Part shown: positions 2,781-37,691 of the stretch, piece by piece
How the letters are laid out: the number at the start of each line of letters is the position of its first letter
Numbering within the stretch: position 1 is the stretch's first letter
IMG/VR virus record: IMGVR_UViG_3300009011_000012
Location: 1 to 64,000 of that record
Strand: one strand, 5' to 3'
DNA from: a virus
DNA length: 64,000 nt
Position numbers and translations under genes: made by a program
Notes under the pieces: model-generated
What the model saw: the letters and a program-made list of their open reading frames with translations, nothing else
Database searches by the model: none
What the model was told of the DNA's origin: nothing

Positions 2781-5700
2781 GATGTATCTCCTTCATGCAC
2801 CCCAGGAAGAACTCTACCAAACCATCACCGTTCAAAACTGATTTTGCGGCTGCTTCCGGGTCGGCATACAGTTGCATGCCCATAGAAAAAATCTCTGTGC
2901 TGCGGCAATTGTTTAAAGCCGGTGGTTTAGATAGCGGCTTACCGCTCTTAGCACTGAAATTTAGTTCCATATAAATTTTAGACATGTACCGGTCACTTAA
3001 GGCAGACCTTACCATATATTCAGCATCCCCCCTGGTGCCGGTGTTGTAATATGTCAGTCGATCACCGGCTTTGGATTTGAGGAAGGCCTTCGCACGTTCA
3101 AGCAGGTGTGGATTAGAGTATTCAATGTGATGCCCTATCTCATGCCAAAGCACATGCTCACCGTCAGTATTGCCCTCTATAGCGATTACCCCATTACGGT
3201 TAGCGTACGCCCTAACGCCATCGCTATGATAAATGTGGTTTAACGAAGCAAGATTGCCACCCACCAGCTCGTAGGCTTTTGCGGCTACCTCTTTTATACT
3301 AAAACCCTTGCGGCCGTAGTCAGGCTGGTCTTGTGCGGTCAGCTCGTCTACTTGATCAGACAGCCTAATGCCTTCACTCCACTCACTCGCCTGTTCTGCA
3401 GTGACGCCACCGGTTTCAAGAAGAGTATCGAAAGCAGCTTTTACCTTCTTGTGAATCATGGTCGTTATAGCCGGAGGATACGCAACGCGATCACTAAATA
3501 ACCTCGAAAGGTCATCCATTTCAAGCTCTAAACGGTCTCGCTCAGGATGAGCCCGCAAAATCATTTTTAAATGACGCACATCAAGCGCTAACCCTGAATT
3601 TTTGTCAAAAACAGCTTTCAAATACGGCTTCAGCTTTTCCGGGTTATCCTGCACTTTATTGATTTGTTCAATATAAAAATCTACCGTGCTCTGGAATCCA
3701 ATATTTCCAGGGTCCACATCAGTGCCAATCTGCTTTAGACTGTTCAAGGCGGAAATATAGCCGTCTGCGATAACATTGATATCGATATCTCTACTCAGCC
3801 CCACTCTTTCCAGTACAGCCTTACCGGATTCCATTACTCCGCTAATGTCAGAAAGCATTTTCTTGGCTAACTTCTCTGCATTCTGGATCGCTGCTACCAG
3901 TTGTTGCACTGTTTTGGCACTACTCATTTTTTTCGTGAAGCTGGCCAACAATGATTTTTTAAGGTTTGGGGGTAATTTTTGGTTCGTCGCGAACCATTTA
4001 ATGCAAGCTTCTTGTACTTCTGGCCAGCTAATTTCACTAGGGACAAGGTTCTCAAGTTGATGCAAAGTCCTGATTACCCTTTCAGTATTGCCTCCATTTT
4101 GTGCTGCATCATTAAGATGCTCTATCGCGTAGTGGATGTTTCGCGGGTCAACCAAAGAAGGGGCCGAATGACCATCTTCGATCGCTGTTTTCAGCGCGCT
4201 GCTGTAAAACATGCTTTTATCAACTGAACTGATCATTGCCCGCACTACACCATCGCTATAGCCGTTGTTACTTATCCATTCTCGGACGGTGTTGTAATTG
4301 AAAAAACGAAGCTTGAAACCAAGGTCTTTGACGTTTTGCTCGCCACTGTGCACATTACTTTTAATCTGCTCGCTGAGCCGCACAATTCTGACCAGCTCAC
4401 TAACATCGGAAGCGCGGGAAATAAGATCCGAAATATAAGGGTCCACTTCCCCGGGCGCGCTTTCAAACATAGCGAAGTTCAGTCCCTTTCCCTCCCCAAA
4501 CTCTGACTCAATCTCCTGGGAAACCGCCGTCAGCACGCTTCGCAGGTCAACCTCACCGCCGCCAAACATATCGCCCAAAGCCTGCTGCTGGTGCGTCAAT
4601 TCGTCATTTATTTTCTGAGCGAGTTTTTTGAACGCAGCTCCCATGCGTTTTGCGCTTCGGTTATTGGTGACGATGAAGAGCGCCAGTGCCTCAGCTTCGG
4701 GAGTGCTGTCACCAAATAATCCTCGCTGGGCAATAACCTCTTCGAGTGCTTGGCCATTATCCTTAGCCTCTCTGACCAGATTTATTGCTTCCTGTAGCGC
4801 GGCTATAGCTTGCTTGTCCAGGCCATCAATGGTTTCGATGCCGTCCACCAGCCCGGTCACAGCGTCATGGTGTATGTCACCAGACAATGACTGCATTTGT
4901 GCAAAATCACTGGCCGCCGTGTTTAGCGCGGTAAGAATATTACGCATATCCGGATCGGGTTCTTCAGCAATAAGTCGAACAAGACGCTCATCTTTGTAGG
5001 CTTTGGCGAAAATCGCGTTTTGCACGCGGTCAATAAGTTGCTTTGTCGGGCGCCCATCGTTAGTTAGAAGGCCAGCCGTCGCCGTGTCACCTATTTCACG
5101 TAAAAATGCCCGGATAAAACCATCATTTGAGCGCGCCAGAAGGTTTCCATCTTCTGAAGGATTAAACAGCGCCATCACGCTTTCTGAAAGGAATTGAGCG
5201 TCTGCATATGCCTTTTCACTGGCCGCCATTTCTTGGAGATCAGAAATGTTAGAGTCTCGCGCGAACTGGGCGCGATCAATGTCAGTTAGACGTTCACGCA
5301 CCAAGACCGGCATTTCCATTGCAGCCACGTCAGATGCCTTAAGGCCAAATTCCTCTGCATGGTCAATCAGGTACTGGCGGTAGTCATTTGCTTGGTCTTG
5401 TTGGTAAGCACGCCAGATCCCCATTGAGCGGCCATTACCAGATTCAACGACGTTATCAGGGCCGACAATCGGTGCACCGTGGCTACTCATCCCTGAGTCG
5501 GTCAGTTGTGCCGGGCGTAGGCCGGAGGCGATCTTACTGACTTGGAGCTTACTGGATAGACGTGTCCGGTCGCGAGGTTGAAGCTCAGATGGAAAATCAG
5601 GGTTAATAGTGCCATCAAGGTTGTTCGAAATTGTCAAAACTGCCACCTCAACGACTTTGAAAGCGGTTTTGACCTCTGCTCCTTTGCTTGTTACAACGTA

Positions 5701-5808
5701 GCTGGCCCGGCCGGTGGTTCTTTGATGTATGGGTAAAGACGTCAACACTGCAATAACGTCATCGATGTCTGTCGCCGCGGACAATGCGGTTTGTACGGAA
5801 AAAGTCAT
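2770..5808 (-). CDS. ddrB: DdrB-like defence-against-restriction head protein with zincin motif
   Basis: About 1012 residues. The start is the ATG at 5808, which follows GGGGGAATTT; the longer reading frame to 5916 lacks a ribosome site. The N-terminal 200 residues contain GAPIVGPDNVVESGNGRSMG, matching the ParB-superfamily domain named after P1 DdrB. P1 Ddr/Dar proteins are packaged in the head and affect antirestriction and morphogenesis. AMFESAPGE at about residue 446 matches the candidate Pro cleavage motif. Near residue 889, WHEIGHHIEYSN is a metallopeptidase-type HExxH motif in a separate C-terminal domain. The ParB-like domain and position beside ssb/darA support the name; the peptidase activity is inferred. 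Confidence 0.75.
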   Translation of the reverse strand: MTFSVQTALSAATDIDDVIAVLTSLPIHQRTTGRASYVVTSKGAEVKTAFKVVEVAVLTISNNLDGTINPDFPSELQPRDRTRLSSKLQVSKIASGLRPAQLTDSGMSSHGAPIVGPDNVVESGNGRSMGIWRAYQQDQANDYRQYLIDHAEEFGLKASDVAAMEMPVLVRERLTDIDRAQFARDSNISDLQEMAASEKAYADAQFLSESVMALFNPSEDGNLLARSNDGFIRAFLREIGDTATAGLLTNDGRPTKQLIDRVQNAIFAKAYKDERLVRLIAEEPDPDMRNILTALNTAASDFAQMQSLSGDIHHDAVTGLVDGIETIDGLDKQAIAALQEAINLVREAKDNGQALEEVIAQRGLFGDSTPEAEALALFIVTNNRSAKRMGAAFKKLAQKINDELTHQQQALGDMFGGGEVDLRSVLTAVSQEIESEFGEGKGLNFAMFESAPGEVDPYISDLISRASDVSELVRIVRLSEQIKSNVHSGEQNVKDLGFKLRFFNYNTVREWISNNGYSDGVVRAMISSVDKSMFYSSALKTAIEDGHSAPSLVDPRNIHYAIEHLNDAAQNGGNTERVIRTLHQLENLVPSEISWPEVQEACIKWFATNQKLPPNLKKSLLASFTKKMSSAKTVQQLVAAIQNAEKLAKKMLSDISGVMESGKAVLERVGLSRDIDINVIADGYISALNSLKQIGTDVDPGNIGFQSTVDFYIEQINKVQDNPEKLKPYLKAVFDKNSGLALDVRHLKMILRAHPERDRLELEMDDLSRLFSDRVAYPPAITTMIHKKVKAAFDTLLETGGVTAEQASEWSEGIRLSDQVDELTAQDQPDYGRKGFSIKEVAAKAYELVGGNLASLNHIYHSDGVRAYANRNGVIAIEGNTDGEHVLWHEIGHHIEYSNPHLLERAKAFLKSKAGDRLTYYNTGTRGDAEYMVRSALSDRYMSKIYMELNFSAKSGKPLSKPPALNNCRSTEIFSMGMQLYADPEAAAKSVLNGDGLVEFFLGCMKEIHHAD

Positions 5809-5946
5809 AAATTCCCCCTTGTCAGAGGGATTGTGGGGAGTTTGGTATTTCTGCGTGACGATGCAATTTGACTGTGAGAAAATTAAGTGCATCATAAATT
5901 TCATGTTGATTAACATCAGTATAATGTGTCACGAGGCTAAAGAGAT

Positions 5947-33876: not shown

Positions 33877-35487
33877 TTATCGCATAAGGATTGGTTTACC
33901 GATGATGCGGCGCGCTGAACCGGTAGGGCACACTGCCCATTCGACTTGCCAGTAATCGCTCTCCAGTTGAGCCACAGTGATTACAAATGGCTCTTCGCCC
34001 TGAGACTTATCTCGGGGCTTTACCAGTGCACCTGCTGAATAGAAGCGCTCCAGTAATTCGGTCATGCCTTTCGTGAGTGACTCTTGGGTAACACCGTCCG
34101 GCTCGTGCTTGATAGCTTCAGCGAGCTCATAGAAGTTACGGGCGATGGCATTCATCAAGGAGGAGACGTGTTGGAAGCGAAGGTAGTTCTTTTTGGTAAA
34201 CGTGGTCAGCGCGTCATCAATATAAACATCACCGCTGGCCGACACTTTTACAGGATTGATTCGTGCCGTAACGAAAGCTTCCAGGTCGATAGCATCGAGG
34301 TTTGGAATCTTGGTGATGTTTTGACGATCGATAATGCCTCGGGATGTCCCCGCAGGGGAATAATGCCAGCCACCGACATCTGGTACCATCGCAACGCCTT
34401 TCGCTTTAGCTACAAAAGCGTCACAGCTAATACCGAAGACAACCTGCATGCCAGTTGCACTGTCTTTACAGGAATAAGGGAAGTAGTAGCGTGCGGGCTG
34501 GTGTGAACCACCAAAGCCATGACCTTTGGCTTCGGTGATCGCAGCTGCAGCTGTCTGATTGCCTGAAAGATCATAGAAGAAGTCGACGCGAACTGCTTCT
34601 GCCAGGTCCTTCAGTGCAGCTAGTACAGTTGAGTCGTAACAACCCAGCGAGAGAATGGCAGTTACATTGATCGGGGCTTGTTCCAGAATAGCCAGTGCTT
34701 TCAGGTATTCTTCAGCAGTAACTTTCGAGAACGTGCCATCAGAACCACCCACGAACGCCACATCTGTGAACGTAATGCCTGTGAACAAATCATCTTTATC
34801 ATCACTGGTGATCACGCAACCTAGGCGGGTAGACATGCTTTCCAACATGGTTTGCAACCATGCTGGTTGGCCCATATCGTTGACGGCCTCTGGGTTGAAA
34901 GAAACCTGATGAGTTTCGAGTTGTTCCACAGAACCATCCGATTGGGTTTCTTTTAGCGTCAGGTTGAGAAGGTCGCTATCCTCATCACTATCAAGCGAAA
35001 TTGTACGATTGCCTGAAGCCTCGCCGTCTTTGATGTAAATGATGGCCAGTTCGCCATCCTTAAGTGCTGGTGTTTCGTGGGGACCAAACTGAGCCCCTTT
35101 TAACACGTACTCACCCAGAACGGTGAAGGATTCGCCTTCTTCAACCTGGTTTTCTTCCCCAGAAGCCTTAGAAATGATGATGCCCGGGACCTTCATATCT
35201 GAAGGGCAAACGCGCACTACATAACCATCGCCACCTTTAACCGCCTGCTGGACGTGACGGAATGGCTCGAATGCCGAACCCAGTCGAGGATGGATTGGTG
35301 TTCCAAGCACATCCTTATAGTTCGATGCTGTGACCTGTAGCACCTTACCCGGCGCGCCACGGCGAGAAATCACCAGACCAGCGAAAACGGAGCTGCCGCC
35401 GCTGCCGGTGGATAGGGTCGCATCAGCGTTAACAGGCATAATGCCGACGCCAGCTGCTTGCCCTACTGAATATCCGATCTTATTCAT
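33877..35487 (-). CDS. 22: Contractile tail sheath protein
   Basis: A 536-residue sheath protein; start ATG at 35487 with AGGGGTAA upstream. The N-terminal segment (GSGGSSVFAGLVISRRGAPGKVL, NYKDVLGTPIHP) and C-terminal domain (MNAIARNFYELAEAIKHEPDG, QVEWAVCPTGSARRIIG) follow the sheath pattern. P1 gp22 is the tail sheath and is adjacent to capsid gene 23, as here. The subunits form the contractile outer tube that drives the inner tube through the envelope. Confidence 0.85.
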   Translation of the reverse strand: MNKIGYSVGQAAGVGIMPVNADATLSTGSGGSSVFAGLVISRRGAPGKVLQVTASNYKDVLGTPIHPRLGSAFEPFRHVQQAVKGGDGYVVRVCPSDMKVPGIIISKASGEENQVEEGESFTVLGEYVLKGAQFGPHETPALKDGELAIIYIKDGEASGNRTISLDSDEDSDLLNLTLKETQSDGSVEQLETHQVSFNPEAVNDMGQPAWLQTMLESMSTRLGCVITSDDKDDLFTGITFTDVAFVGGSDGTFSKVTAEEYLKALAILEQAPINVTAILSLGCYDSTVLAALKDLAEAVRVDFFYDLSGNQTAAAAITEAKGHGFGGSHQPARYYFPYSCKDSATGMQVVFGISCDAFVAKAKGVAMVPDVGGWHYSPAGTSRGIIDRQNITKIPNLDAIDLEAFVTARINPVKVSASGDVYIDDALTTFTKKNYLRFQHVSSLMNAIARNFYELAEAIKHEPDGVTQESLTKGMTELLERFYSAGALVKPRDKSQGEEPFVITVAQLESDYWQVEWAVCPTGSARRIIGKPILMR

Positions 35488-35552
35488 TGCACTTACCCCT
35501 TCGGCGTGCGATTTGAACTTAAAACATTTCCCCCTCATGCGAGGGAGGAAAA

Positions 35553-35831
35553 TTATTCGCCTACGGTGAAGGTGTCACCCACGGTAGCGTCTTGTTTTTC
35601 GCTATCCACGCTGACGCCCTCTACGGTAACTACTGCCGCTTTAACCACAACCTTATGAGTAACGGTGTGGCCACCATCAGCAGTTGTAATAGTCAGTTCG
35701 GCTTCGCCAGGACCTTCTGCTTTACATTTATTGTTTTTACCCACAGATACGACCGCAGGGTTACTTGATACGACAGTAATGGCCTTGTTGGTGGCGTTTT
35801 CAGGGAAAACGGAAACTTTGATATCTGGCAT
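35553..35831 (-). CDS. Ig-like (Big_2) decoration protein, circularly permuted in appearance
   Basis: A 92-residue bacterial Ig-like protein: MPDIKVSVFPENATNKAIT, SSNPAVVSVG, CKAEGPGEAELTITTADGG. In a normal Big_2 domain the strand GVSV...VGDTFTV comes first; here it comes last (VEGVSVDSEKQDATVGDTFTVGE), so the domain looks circularly permuted or lacks its own first strand. The capsid gene just upstream can encode the missing strand by frameshifting. It probably decorates the capsid surface, as Ig-like domains do in many phages. Confidence 0.7.
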   Translation of the reverse strand: MPDIKVSVFPENATNKAITVVSSNPAVVSVGKNNKCKAEGPGEAELTITTADGGHTVTHKVVVKAAVVTVEGVSVDSEKQDATVGDTFTVGE

Positions 35832-35883
35832 TTTGTTCTCCTAACGCCCCATAAGGGGGCGTTGTAAATAGACGTTTTATGGC

Positions 35884-35964
35884 TTACTCAATTGCGAACG
35901 AGTCACCCTCAGATAACTCCTGGCCGTCAGATGAAACTGAAACGCCAGTTACTCCGACTTTTTT
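35884..35964 (-). other. Programmed -1 frameshift site and Ig-strand extension of the capsid gene
   Basis: The capsid frame ends ...GAA GAA AAA AAG TCG GAG TAA. The heptamer A AAA AAG (35964-35958) is in the correct phase for -1 slippage. Nine bases later CTGGC...GCCAG can form a stem-loop. The -1 frame then runs 24 codons to a stop at 35884: VGVTGVSVSSDGQELSEGDS and FAIE. This matches the terminal strand of the adjacent Ig-like protein, so it is unlikely to be a chance open frame. Confidence 0.7.
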
Positions 35965-37691
35965 TCTTCTTCATCCGTGGTTTCCCCTGGATTTGATGCT
36001 GAGGAGTTAATCTGGCCTGTCAGCATGTTGATCGCGCCTTCTTTGGAGTGCGTCAGACGTAAACGTGCGAAATAGTTTTCACCGTTACGAGGGTGAACAT
36101 CATTGATTGCTGAACCCCACAGAGTTGTACGGTTAACCAGGCTCGGGTTGGTTTCGTGGACGTAAGGAATTGCTGCTACTGCATCACCGGCGATCAGACC
36201 TGCTTTGCCGATATCGTTGCCGCGACCGTAGAAATAGATGTCATCCAGGCCAAGGTCATAACCCTGTTTCTGGAACTGCTCGCAAACTGGAGTAGGGACT
36301 TCGTAAATGCGGATAGATCCAAAAAGGGTACCGATGTACTGAATGTACGGAGATTGGACATAACCCGGGGCCAGCTGGAAATGCTGAGGTGGTAGTGAGC
36401 GCAGGAAGTTAGCTGCATCGCCACCAGCGAAGCCACCGCGAATACCTGAAGCCAGGGTGCGGTTAGCCATATCCTGGGACAAAGCATTCACAACATGGCG
36501 CATCAGACTTACCCATGATTCATAGCTTTGTGCTTCTGGAAGAGCAGCATCGAATTCACGGCCATACACGGTATGGAAAACCAGCGTGCGAAGGCGCATT
36601 ACATCTTGTTCATGGCTGAGCCACTGGCGCATTGCTGAGAACTGAGTCGCAGCCATGTTAATACCAAATTCACGGCTGGCATCAGACGCGGACATGATGG
36701 TGTGTTCAGATGCAACAACATACTGAGACGGCTTAACTTTGTAGTTACGCATCGCCTGGTTGATGACGGGGATCAGGTTAGGAGCGCGCTCGATGTTGAT
36801 CTCAACCTGTACTGCAAGCTCGGTACCTTCCGCTGGTGCATCGGTAAAGGTGATATCAATTACACCGGTGTCGTATGCCACCTTCGCAGTAGCAGCAAAC
36901 AGATTGCCTTTGCTATCCGAACCGTTGAAATACAGATTGCCGTCACCATCGTCAACTTTCGATGGTTTACGATTGATTAACAGCTTGTTATAGCCAGCAC
37001 GGATAGGGCAGTTTTGTCCTTCAAAGTCCTTAATATCGAACTTGAAAACTTTGGTTACACCATCGCCTTTTGCCGCCAGCTGGTACAGTCGTTTCATCTG
37101 ACTGTAGACGCCAGCGCTTTGCATATTCAATTCATCGCCTGGCTTGAAAGTGCCAAAATTGGTGCCTGCGATGTTGATGAGTTCGTAGATGTCTGATTCA
37201 TCACGTTCGCATGGGATGAAAGTGCAGGCATCGCTTGTGGCTGCGCCCAGGGCAGCTGGCAGAATCAGCGCTGCAAATTGAGCGATGCGCATAACACCAT
37301 CAGAACTGCGCATGGATTCAGCAGCGGACTCGAACATCGCCTTACCGGTGCCGCTATGCTTATCTTTAGCGCATTCTGTCATAAGGTTTTCGAGCGCGAC
37401 GTGACAGTTTGCCAGCACGTCTACAGCCGGGTAACGGCCGTGCTCTTGTTTATACTGGTGCATAGCCATAGCCCAGCCACCTGCAATTTGCAGGGCTGCA
37501 TCAGGATCGACACCTTCGAACATTGGCACCTTTTGCACTGCTGAGGTAAGGCTCGCCGTCATGGCGGCTTCATCGGCAATCAAATTGCCTGCACCGTCGG
37601 TGATTGGTTCGATAGTCATCGCCATGACGGAAGCCGCCCGACTCATCATTTCTTTCTCGCGTTTGCGAGCTGGCTGAATATCTTTATTCAC
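35949..37691 (-). CDS. 23: Major capsid protein
   Basis: A 580-residue capsid protein starting with GTG at 37691. Position beside sheath gene 22, length near P1 gp23 and an N-terminal propeptide support the assignment. AMFESA at residues 118-123 is the likely Pro cleavage site and would remove about 121 residues. The mature part contains GGFAGGDAANFLRSLPPQHFQL and long loops typical of HK97-fold capsids. The extreme C-terminus (TDEEEKKSE) contains a slippery heptamer that would extend about 4-50 percent of chains by 24 residues if it works like known sites; the true rate is unknown. Confidence 0.87.
   Translation of the reverse strand: MNKDIQPARKREKEMMSRAASVMAMTIEPITDGAGNLIADEAAMTASLTSAVQKVPMFEGVDPDAALQIAGGWAMAMHQYKQEHGRYPAVDVLANCHVALENLMTECAKDKHSGTGKAMFESAAESMRSSDGVMRIAQFAALILPAALGAATSDACTFIPCERDESDIYELINIAGTNFGTFKPGDELNMQSAGVYSQMKRLYQLAAKGDGVTKVFKFDIKDFEGQNCPIRAGYNKLLINRKPSKVDDGDGNLYFNGSDSKGNLFAATAKVAYDTGVIDITFTDAPAEGTELAVQVEINIERAPNLIPVINQAMRNYKVKPSQYVVASEHTIMSASDASREFGINMAATQFSAMRQWLSHEQDVMRLRTLVFHTVYGREFDAALPEAQSYESWVSLMRHVVNALSQDMANRTLASGIRGGFAGGDAANFLRSLPPQHFQLAPGYVQSPYIQYIGTLFGSIRIYEVPTPVCEQFQKQGYDLGLDDIYFYGRGNDIGKAGLIAGDAVAAIPYVHETNPSLVNRTTLWGSAINDVHPRNGENYFARLRLTHSKEGAINMLTGQINSSASNPGETTDEEEKKSE

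Follow-up and report, generated by a model that had tools for sequence, protein, structure and literature searches.

A conserved candidate frameshift site at the end of a P1/D6-like capsid gene and its possible link to a truncated Ig protein

Main finding

The major capsid gene of a P1/D6-like phage-plasmid ends in a conserved, putative −1 programmed ribosomal frameshift site, and the capsid subunits made by frameshifting there would probably bear a donor strand for the capture of a truncated Ig protein encoded by the next gene. Most ribosomes would stop at the end of the capsid gene and yield the plain capsid protein, while at A AAA AAG a fraction would shift frame and extend the protein by a short C-terminal peptide that would correspond to strand A, and the start of strand B, of a Big_2 Ig domain. 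The product of the next gene is predicted to be a small Ig protein without that strand, and the capsid peptide would enter its open edge by donor-strand complementation, thereby anchoring the Ig protein on the head, probably on its outside. The C-terminus of the Ig protein itself resembles a second donor strand, and a bound Ig protein could thus recruit another to give a short, non-covalent chain.

Results

Genomic setting of the capsid gene

The window, by which we mean the whole stretch of 64,000 nucleotides analyzed here, is part of an 89-kb IMG/VR virus record (IMGVR_UViG_3300009011_000012); close copies of it are found in Enterobacter and E. coli phage-plasmids. The capsid ORF scores 81% to D6 and 46% to P1 gp23 by tblastn and matches the P1 Gp23 structure 9ukm with an E value of 8e-171 (phmmer). 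With both a gp23-type capsid and a gp22-type sheath present, the source phage is a P1/D6-like phage-plasmid. Reading along the minus strand, the order of genes is capsid, the 92-amino-acid Ig ORF, and the tail sheath (Table 1). A search of positions 35300-36300 against Rfam gave a single match, at chance level, and a possible tie to defence genes was dropped, PADLOC having given none. GC-rich hairpins lie on the minus strand at 35840-35870 and 35529-35552, just upstream of the ribosome-binding sites between the capsid, Ig, and sheath genes, and similar junction hairpins occur in the relatives examined, including at the capsid-sheath junction of P1; they may be mRNA processing or stabilizing elements.

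Table 1. Coordinates in the window of the features discussed in the text.
Feature	Coordinates	Strand	Basis
Major capsid protein ORF, 580 aa	37691-35949	minus	P1 gp23 / D6 orf51 homologue
Slippery heptamer A AAA AAG, exact −1 phase, just 5' of the 0-frame stop	35964-35958	minus	X XXY YYZ form
−1 frame extension VGVTGVSVSSDGQELSEGDSFAIE + stop; putative Ig strand A + start of strand B, candidate donor strand	35884..35957	minus	Frame dN/dS, cross-clade peptide likeness, L033 counterpart
Candidate 3' stimulatory stem-loop CTGGC...GCCAG	35920..35948	minus	9 nt after heptamer, RNA fold
AGGAG ribosome-binding site of Ig ORF	35838..35842	minus	Read from sequence
92-aa Big_2 Ig protein without strand A, putative acceptor; strands B-G at about residues 4-63	35831-35553	minus	Pfam, PHROG 215, AF2
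Ig protein C-terminal tail VEGVSVDSEKQDATVGDTFTV...; putative strand A of the "next" domain, candidate second donor strand	35556..35630	minus	BP63_31 boundary alignment
Tail sheath, P1 gp22 homologue (context)	33877..35487	minus	PHROG 1036 tail sheath, E 6e-175

The slippery heptamer and the −1 extension

The capsid ORF ends in GAA GAA GAA AAA AAG TCG GAG TAA, and its last codons thus contain A AAA AAG in the exact −1 phase, just as the initial annotation had claimed; the same is true of its statement that the −1 frame runs on for 24 codons. The −1 frame reads KK followed by VGVTGVSVSSDGQELSEGDSFAIE, up to a stop at 35886-35884. Taken alone, these 24 codons have no match in Pfam, and the shifted frame contains no complete Ig domain. 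AAAAAAG occurs 26 times in the window, and only one of the 26, the capsid site, is both in the −1 phase and no more than five codons away from where a long gene ends. In E. coli, A_AAA_AAG is among the most shift-prone heptamers and is absent from the 306 most highly expressed genes (PMC5009743); because high expression is to be expected of a capsid gene, the heptamer is unlikely to be neutral in this one. Its occurrence by chance is ruled out by its conservation in relatives (see below), and a sequencing slip in the run of A residues is likewise ruled out, as independent genomes of two clades share the run while their DNA is distinct. The run consists of seven A's in both clades, which would also suit transcriptional slippage, rather than ribosomal frameshifting, as the source of an extended protein. 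However, E. coli RNA polymerase slippage usually needs longer A runs, and the exact A AAA AAG in one phase is a better fit to ribosomal slippage; we regard a transcriptional origin as highly improbable.

The site had been likened to that of E. coli dnaX, and the likeness holds for the heptamer and, in prediction, for a candidate stem 9 nt downstream but not for the upstream Shine-Dalgarno stimulator. As in dnaX, the same A AAA AAG is followed by a stem-loop, here a candidate one, whose arms (CTGGC, 35948-35944, and GCCAG, 35924-35920) pair in the predicted minimum free energy fold (z-score of -2.2). Comparison of copies by eye revealed no Shine-Dalgarno-like motif common to them upstream, in contrast to dnaX; furthermore, the capsid frameshift product would be longer, not shorter, and both the gene and its function are different. 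The 3' folds of D6 and of one further locus, L010, have z-scores of -2.8 and -3.1, but that of another, L013, is only -0.41, i.e., the RNA folds no better than its shuffled counterparts. The E. coli-type copies have a different, common stem of 7 bp that starts 5 nt after the heptamer; its codons are invariant and there is almost no covariation.

Conservation of the heptamer and the −1 peptide

The heptamer and the −1 peptide were found together in 49 fetched copies, which represent 13 distinct DNA versions, since some of the 49 are overlapping fetches of one contig. Every Ig-bearing capsid locus retains the heptamer, with the sole exception of L033, which is discussed below. In D6 and in phage-plasmids of E. 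coli, Salmonella, and Shigella (together, the D6 type), the capsid is ~80% identical to that of the window, but the DNA of the tail is unalignable. D6-type capsids end in ...AAC GAA AAA AAG followed directly by a stop, which varies by copy among TGA, TAG, and TAA; the −1 frame nevertheless always continues as KKV(M/A)VANVSV(S/A)P...GETIA..., and in D6 itself a frameshifted product would read through ...VNEKKVMVANVSVSP.... Across the whole system, the extension is 24-35 residues long, about one and a half strands.

Ten distinct E. coli-type versions were used to estimate dN/dS by the Nei-Gojobori method, yielding 0.47 for the −1 frame versus 0.96 and 1.26 for the other two; judged by these ratios, the −1 frame is under purifying selection. 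The −1 peptides of the window type and the D6 type align with a score of 38, and only 2 of 2000 shuffles did as well, whereas the same shuffle comparison of the window and D6 types gave no similarity signal in the other two frames. Window-type copies differ at two positions within the extension, and both differences are synonymous in the −1 frame. The initial annotation had staked its idea on the heptamer and the −1 frame being conserved in homologous phages; both are, and the idea survived. One D6-type copy (L025, about 5780-5820) is one A short in a second run of seven A's within the extension; the loss alters only the basic part of the C-terminal tail, and the strand A portion is intact.

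An in-frame relative and co-occurrence with the Ig gene

At the level of sequence, the best support for production and use of the extension comes from L033, an IMG/VR metagenome contig whose capsid is 76% identical and has no heptamer. The L033 capsid instead reads ...LTGQVNGTSGTVVEGVTLSPASITVSAGDEITAGNTKKDS* at its end without leaving frame 0, and a similarly truncated Ig gene follows. Aligning the D6 trans-frame peptide with the in-frame peptide of L033 gave a score of 50, which none of 2000 shuffles attained. All capsids that have the strand and the Ig gene fall into a single clade of the capsid tree (100/99); L033 is nested inside it, adjoining the window type (95/93). The reading frame has therefore changed during evolution, and the peptide was kept. 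Among more than 100 capsid loci, the strand and the Ig gene co-occur, in one clade; the capsids of P1, JK004, Salmonella Newport, Leclercia, the Pantoea type, and Xenorhabdus have neither the strand nor the Ig gene.

The existence of an in-frame version would also be expected if the −1 frame were a relic, decaying or only incidentally expressed, of an ancestral in-frame capsid-Ig fusion that was broken by indels, and rescue by slippage of out-of-frame Ig fragments in phages has already been proposed (PMC5009743). A relic is nevertheless difficult to reconcile with purifying selection in the −1 frame, or with retention of the heptamer across deep splits despite changing stop codons; the Ig gene, moreover, has its own start and ribosome-binding site and is intact in the copies examined. 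We therefore think decay of an old fusion a very unlikely account.

The truncated Ig protein is a shifted unit of a tandem array

The 92-residue protein matches Pfam Big_2 (PF02368) with an E value of 3.5e-5 and a score of 24.1 bits, against a cut-off of 22.8, but only over part of the profile, positions 23-79 of 79; as the match begins at profile position 23, the first strand is missing. It also matches PHROG 215, "structural protein with Ig domain", over residues 4-90 (E 1e-19). A search of viral contigs with the single Ig protein gave no match, whereas matches were obtained with an alignment of Ig proteins. The last 25 residues again resemble the first strand of a Big_2 domain, and in the window phage this tail aligns with the capsid extension with a score of 54, against a shuffled mean of 20. 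The protein thus does have no first strand at its start and does end with a strand of the same kind (VEGVSVDSEKQDATVGDTFTV), both of which had been noticed originally.

The further suggestion that the protein is circularly permuted is better replaced by that of a tandem Ig array unit in a shifted register. Tandem Big_2 proteins of phage heads and tails (PHROG 215), such as BP63_31 of Rosemountvirus, have the same fold and the same domain-boundary register, and the Ig protein aligns nearly without gaps to BP63_31, over a stretch that begins in strand B of one repeat and, past the boundary, reaches strand A of the next. The spacing of the strand A motif from the DG of the F-G turn is 18 residues in each of the four Ig proteins tested, as it is at both covalent boundaries. 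From the alignment and this spacing it follows that the Ig protein would be a single repeat of a tandem array whose cut lies in the A-B loop; the difference is that tandem Big_2 proteins are covalent arrays, whereas here the array is spread over two genes. The same comparisons support the capsid peptide as the strand A that is missing from the Ig unit. Because the linker in covalent arrays sends strand A into the next domain, the Ig tail would be placed to act in trans, and, given the 18-residue register, donation in trans is more probable than circular permutation in cis.

Predicted completion of the Ig fold

All AF2 alignments contained rows from the window and related loci only. Modeled alone (12 rows), the Ig protein of the window has a pLDDT of 89 and no strand in residues 1-17; in silico, by Pfam coverage and AF2 alike, the acceptor is an Ig fold without an edge strand. 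The C-terminal tail is modeled with a pLDDT of 88-94, and some packing of the tail in cis is therefore possible. In L033, the capsid tail and the Ig gene share a frame, and a tethered construct was obtained by reading the two stops as residues (8 rows, pTM 0.58). In this model, the capsid peptide forms strands at 10-14, 17-20, and 25-29 with a pLDDT of about 80-84, the linker is disordered (about 40), strand B forms, and the Ig tail is free and without strands. Foldseek alignment to solved Big_2 domains increased from 57 columns (E 1e-3), against the best Big_2 structure, for the Ig protein alone to 118 (E 5e-7) for the tethered L033 model, which covers a single 82-residue viral Ig domain with a TMt of 0.88; this model is of L033, not of the window, and the native Ig order and the shallow alignment favor the expected answer. 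The capsid strand is thus predicted to complete the Ig fold, and docking by strand exchange, as proposed in the initial annotation, gains support in prediction from the tethered model together with the tandem-array register.

It could be argued that the frameshift is real but that the peptide and the Ig protein never meet: the peptide would stabilize neighboring capsid subunits, and the Ig protein would complete itself in cis or bind the tail or sheath. The high pLDDT of the tail in the Ig protein alone fits such a separation, as does the position of the Ig gene between those for the capsid and the sheath, where it could serve either. We nonetheless consider this unlikely, because the Ig tail after strand G is spaced as in covalent arrays, in which strand A goes into the following domain, because in the tethered model it is the capsid strand that is taken up while the Ig tail stays free, and because the capsid strand and the Ig gene share one pattern of presence and absence.

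Donor-strand capture by the capsid peptide is compatible with a stronger form, in which the capsid strand mainly nucleates multi-subunit Ig fibers. Frameshifted capsid subunits would then be seeds: their strand captures an Ig protein, whose tail captures the next, and so on, giving non-covalent head fibers without a chaperone, and the number of seeds would be set by the frequency of frameshifting. The Ig tail appears to be a good strand A donor, both from its score against the capsid extension and from its tandem-array register, but no terminator subunit was identified, and the tail could be capped in cis. We put fiber growth forward only tentatively, as a possibility somewhat short of an even chance.

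Discussion

Two capsid products, one of them extended within an Ig-like fold by a −1 frameshift near the gene end, are already known: phage T3 gp10 and the major head protein of Lactobacillus phage A2 both gain an Ig-like domain at the C-terminus in this way (PMC5009743; Fraser et al. 2006, cited there). In those phages, the frameshift adds the Ig-like domain itself, whereas the extension described here is of 24-35 residues, and the rest of the domain would be the product of a separate gene. Frameshift-added whole Ig domains are thus known; the literature searched yielded no case of one domain shared by two proteins.

In chaperone-usher pili, donor-strand exchange occurs between subunits whose Ig fold is without one edge strand, the gap being filled by an extension of another protein. 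The parallel with the proposed system is close, in that a missing edge strand is supplied in trans to a subunit that also carries a donor strand of its own. The differences are that the missing strand in this phage is strand A, on the N-terminal edge, that the donor would be the capsid C-terminus reached through frameshifting, and that no chaperone or usher was named among the genes examined here. The Hoc protein of T4 and the Ig-like decoration proteins of N4 are also Ig-type proteins tied to the capsid surface, but they are complete and bind the capsid by their own surface, with no split domain. A search of the open literature, in which the original D6 genome paper was not included, found nothing relevant on donor-strand exchange or complementation in phage capsid decoration.

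Phages are known to use frameshifting to append Ig domains to their capsids, but there is little understanding of why the extension is limited to a fraction of the subunits. In the system described here, the extension is shorter than a domain and its putative partner is the product of the next gene; D6, for which the phage record names E. coli C600 as the host, therefore lends itself to direct tests of ratio control, docking, and assembly. P1, which does not have the peptide, is reported to be without decoration and cement proteins (PMC9024508, PMC12810830), and the strand/Ig system would therefore be dispensable for a P1-type head. If the proposal is correct, the phage would offer a natural example of decoration by donor strands with a split Ig domain, on which capsid display in controlled ratios might be built.

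A further capsid tail among the relatives

A second capsid tail may be reached by frameshifting among these relatives, as judged from the sequence of L053 (IMGVR_UViG_2890906962_000004, about 5695-5920). Its capsid gene ends in G GGA AAG TGA, is accompanied by no Ig gene, and contains in G GGA AAG what we take to be a slippery heptamer of the lambda G-T type; the −1 frame continues for 72 codons that are rich in Ala, Lys, and Gln. Similar capsid tails, rich in Ala and Pro, are found in L050, L051, and L054, but there they are encoded in frame 0.
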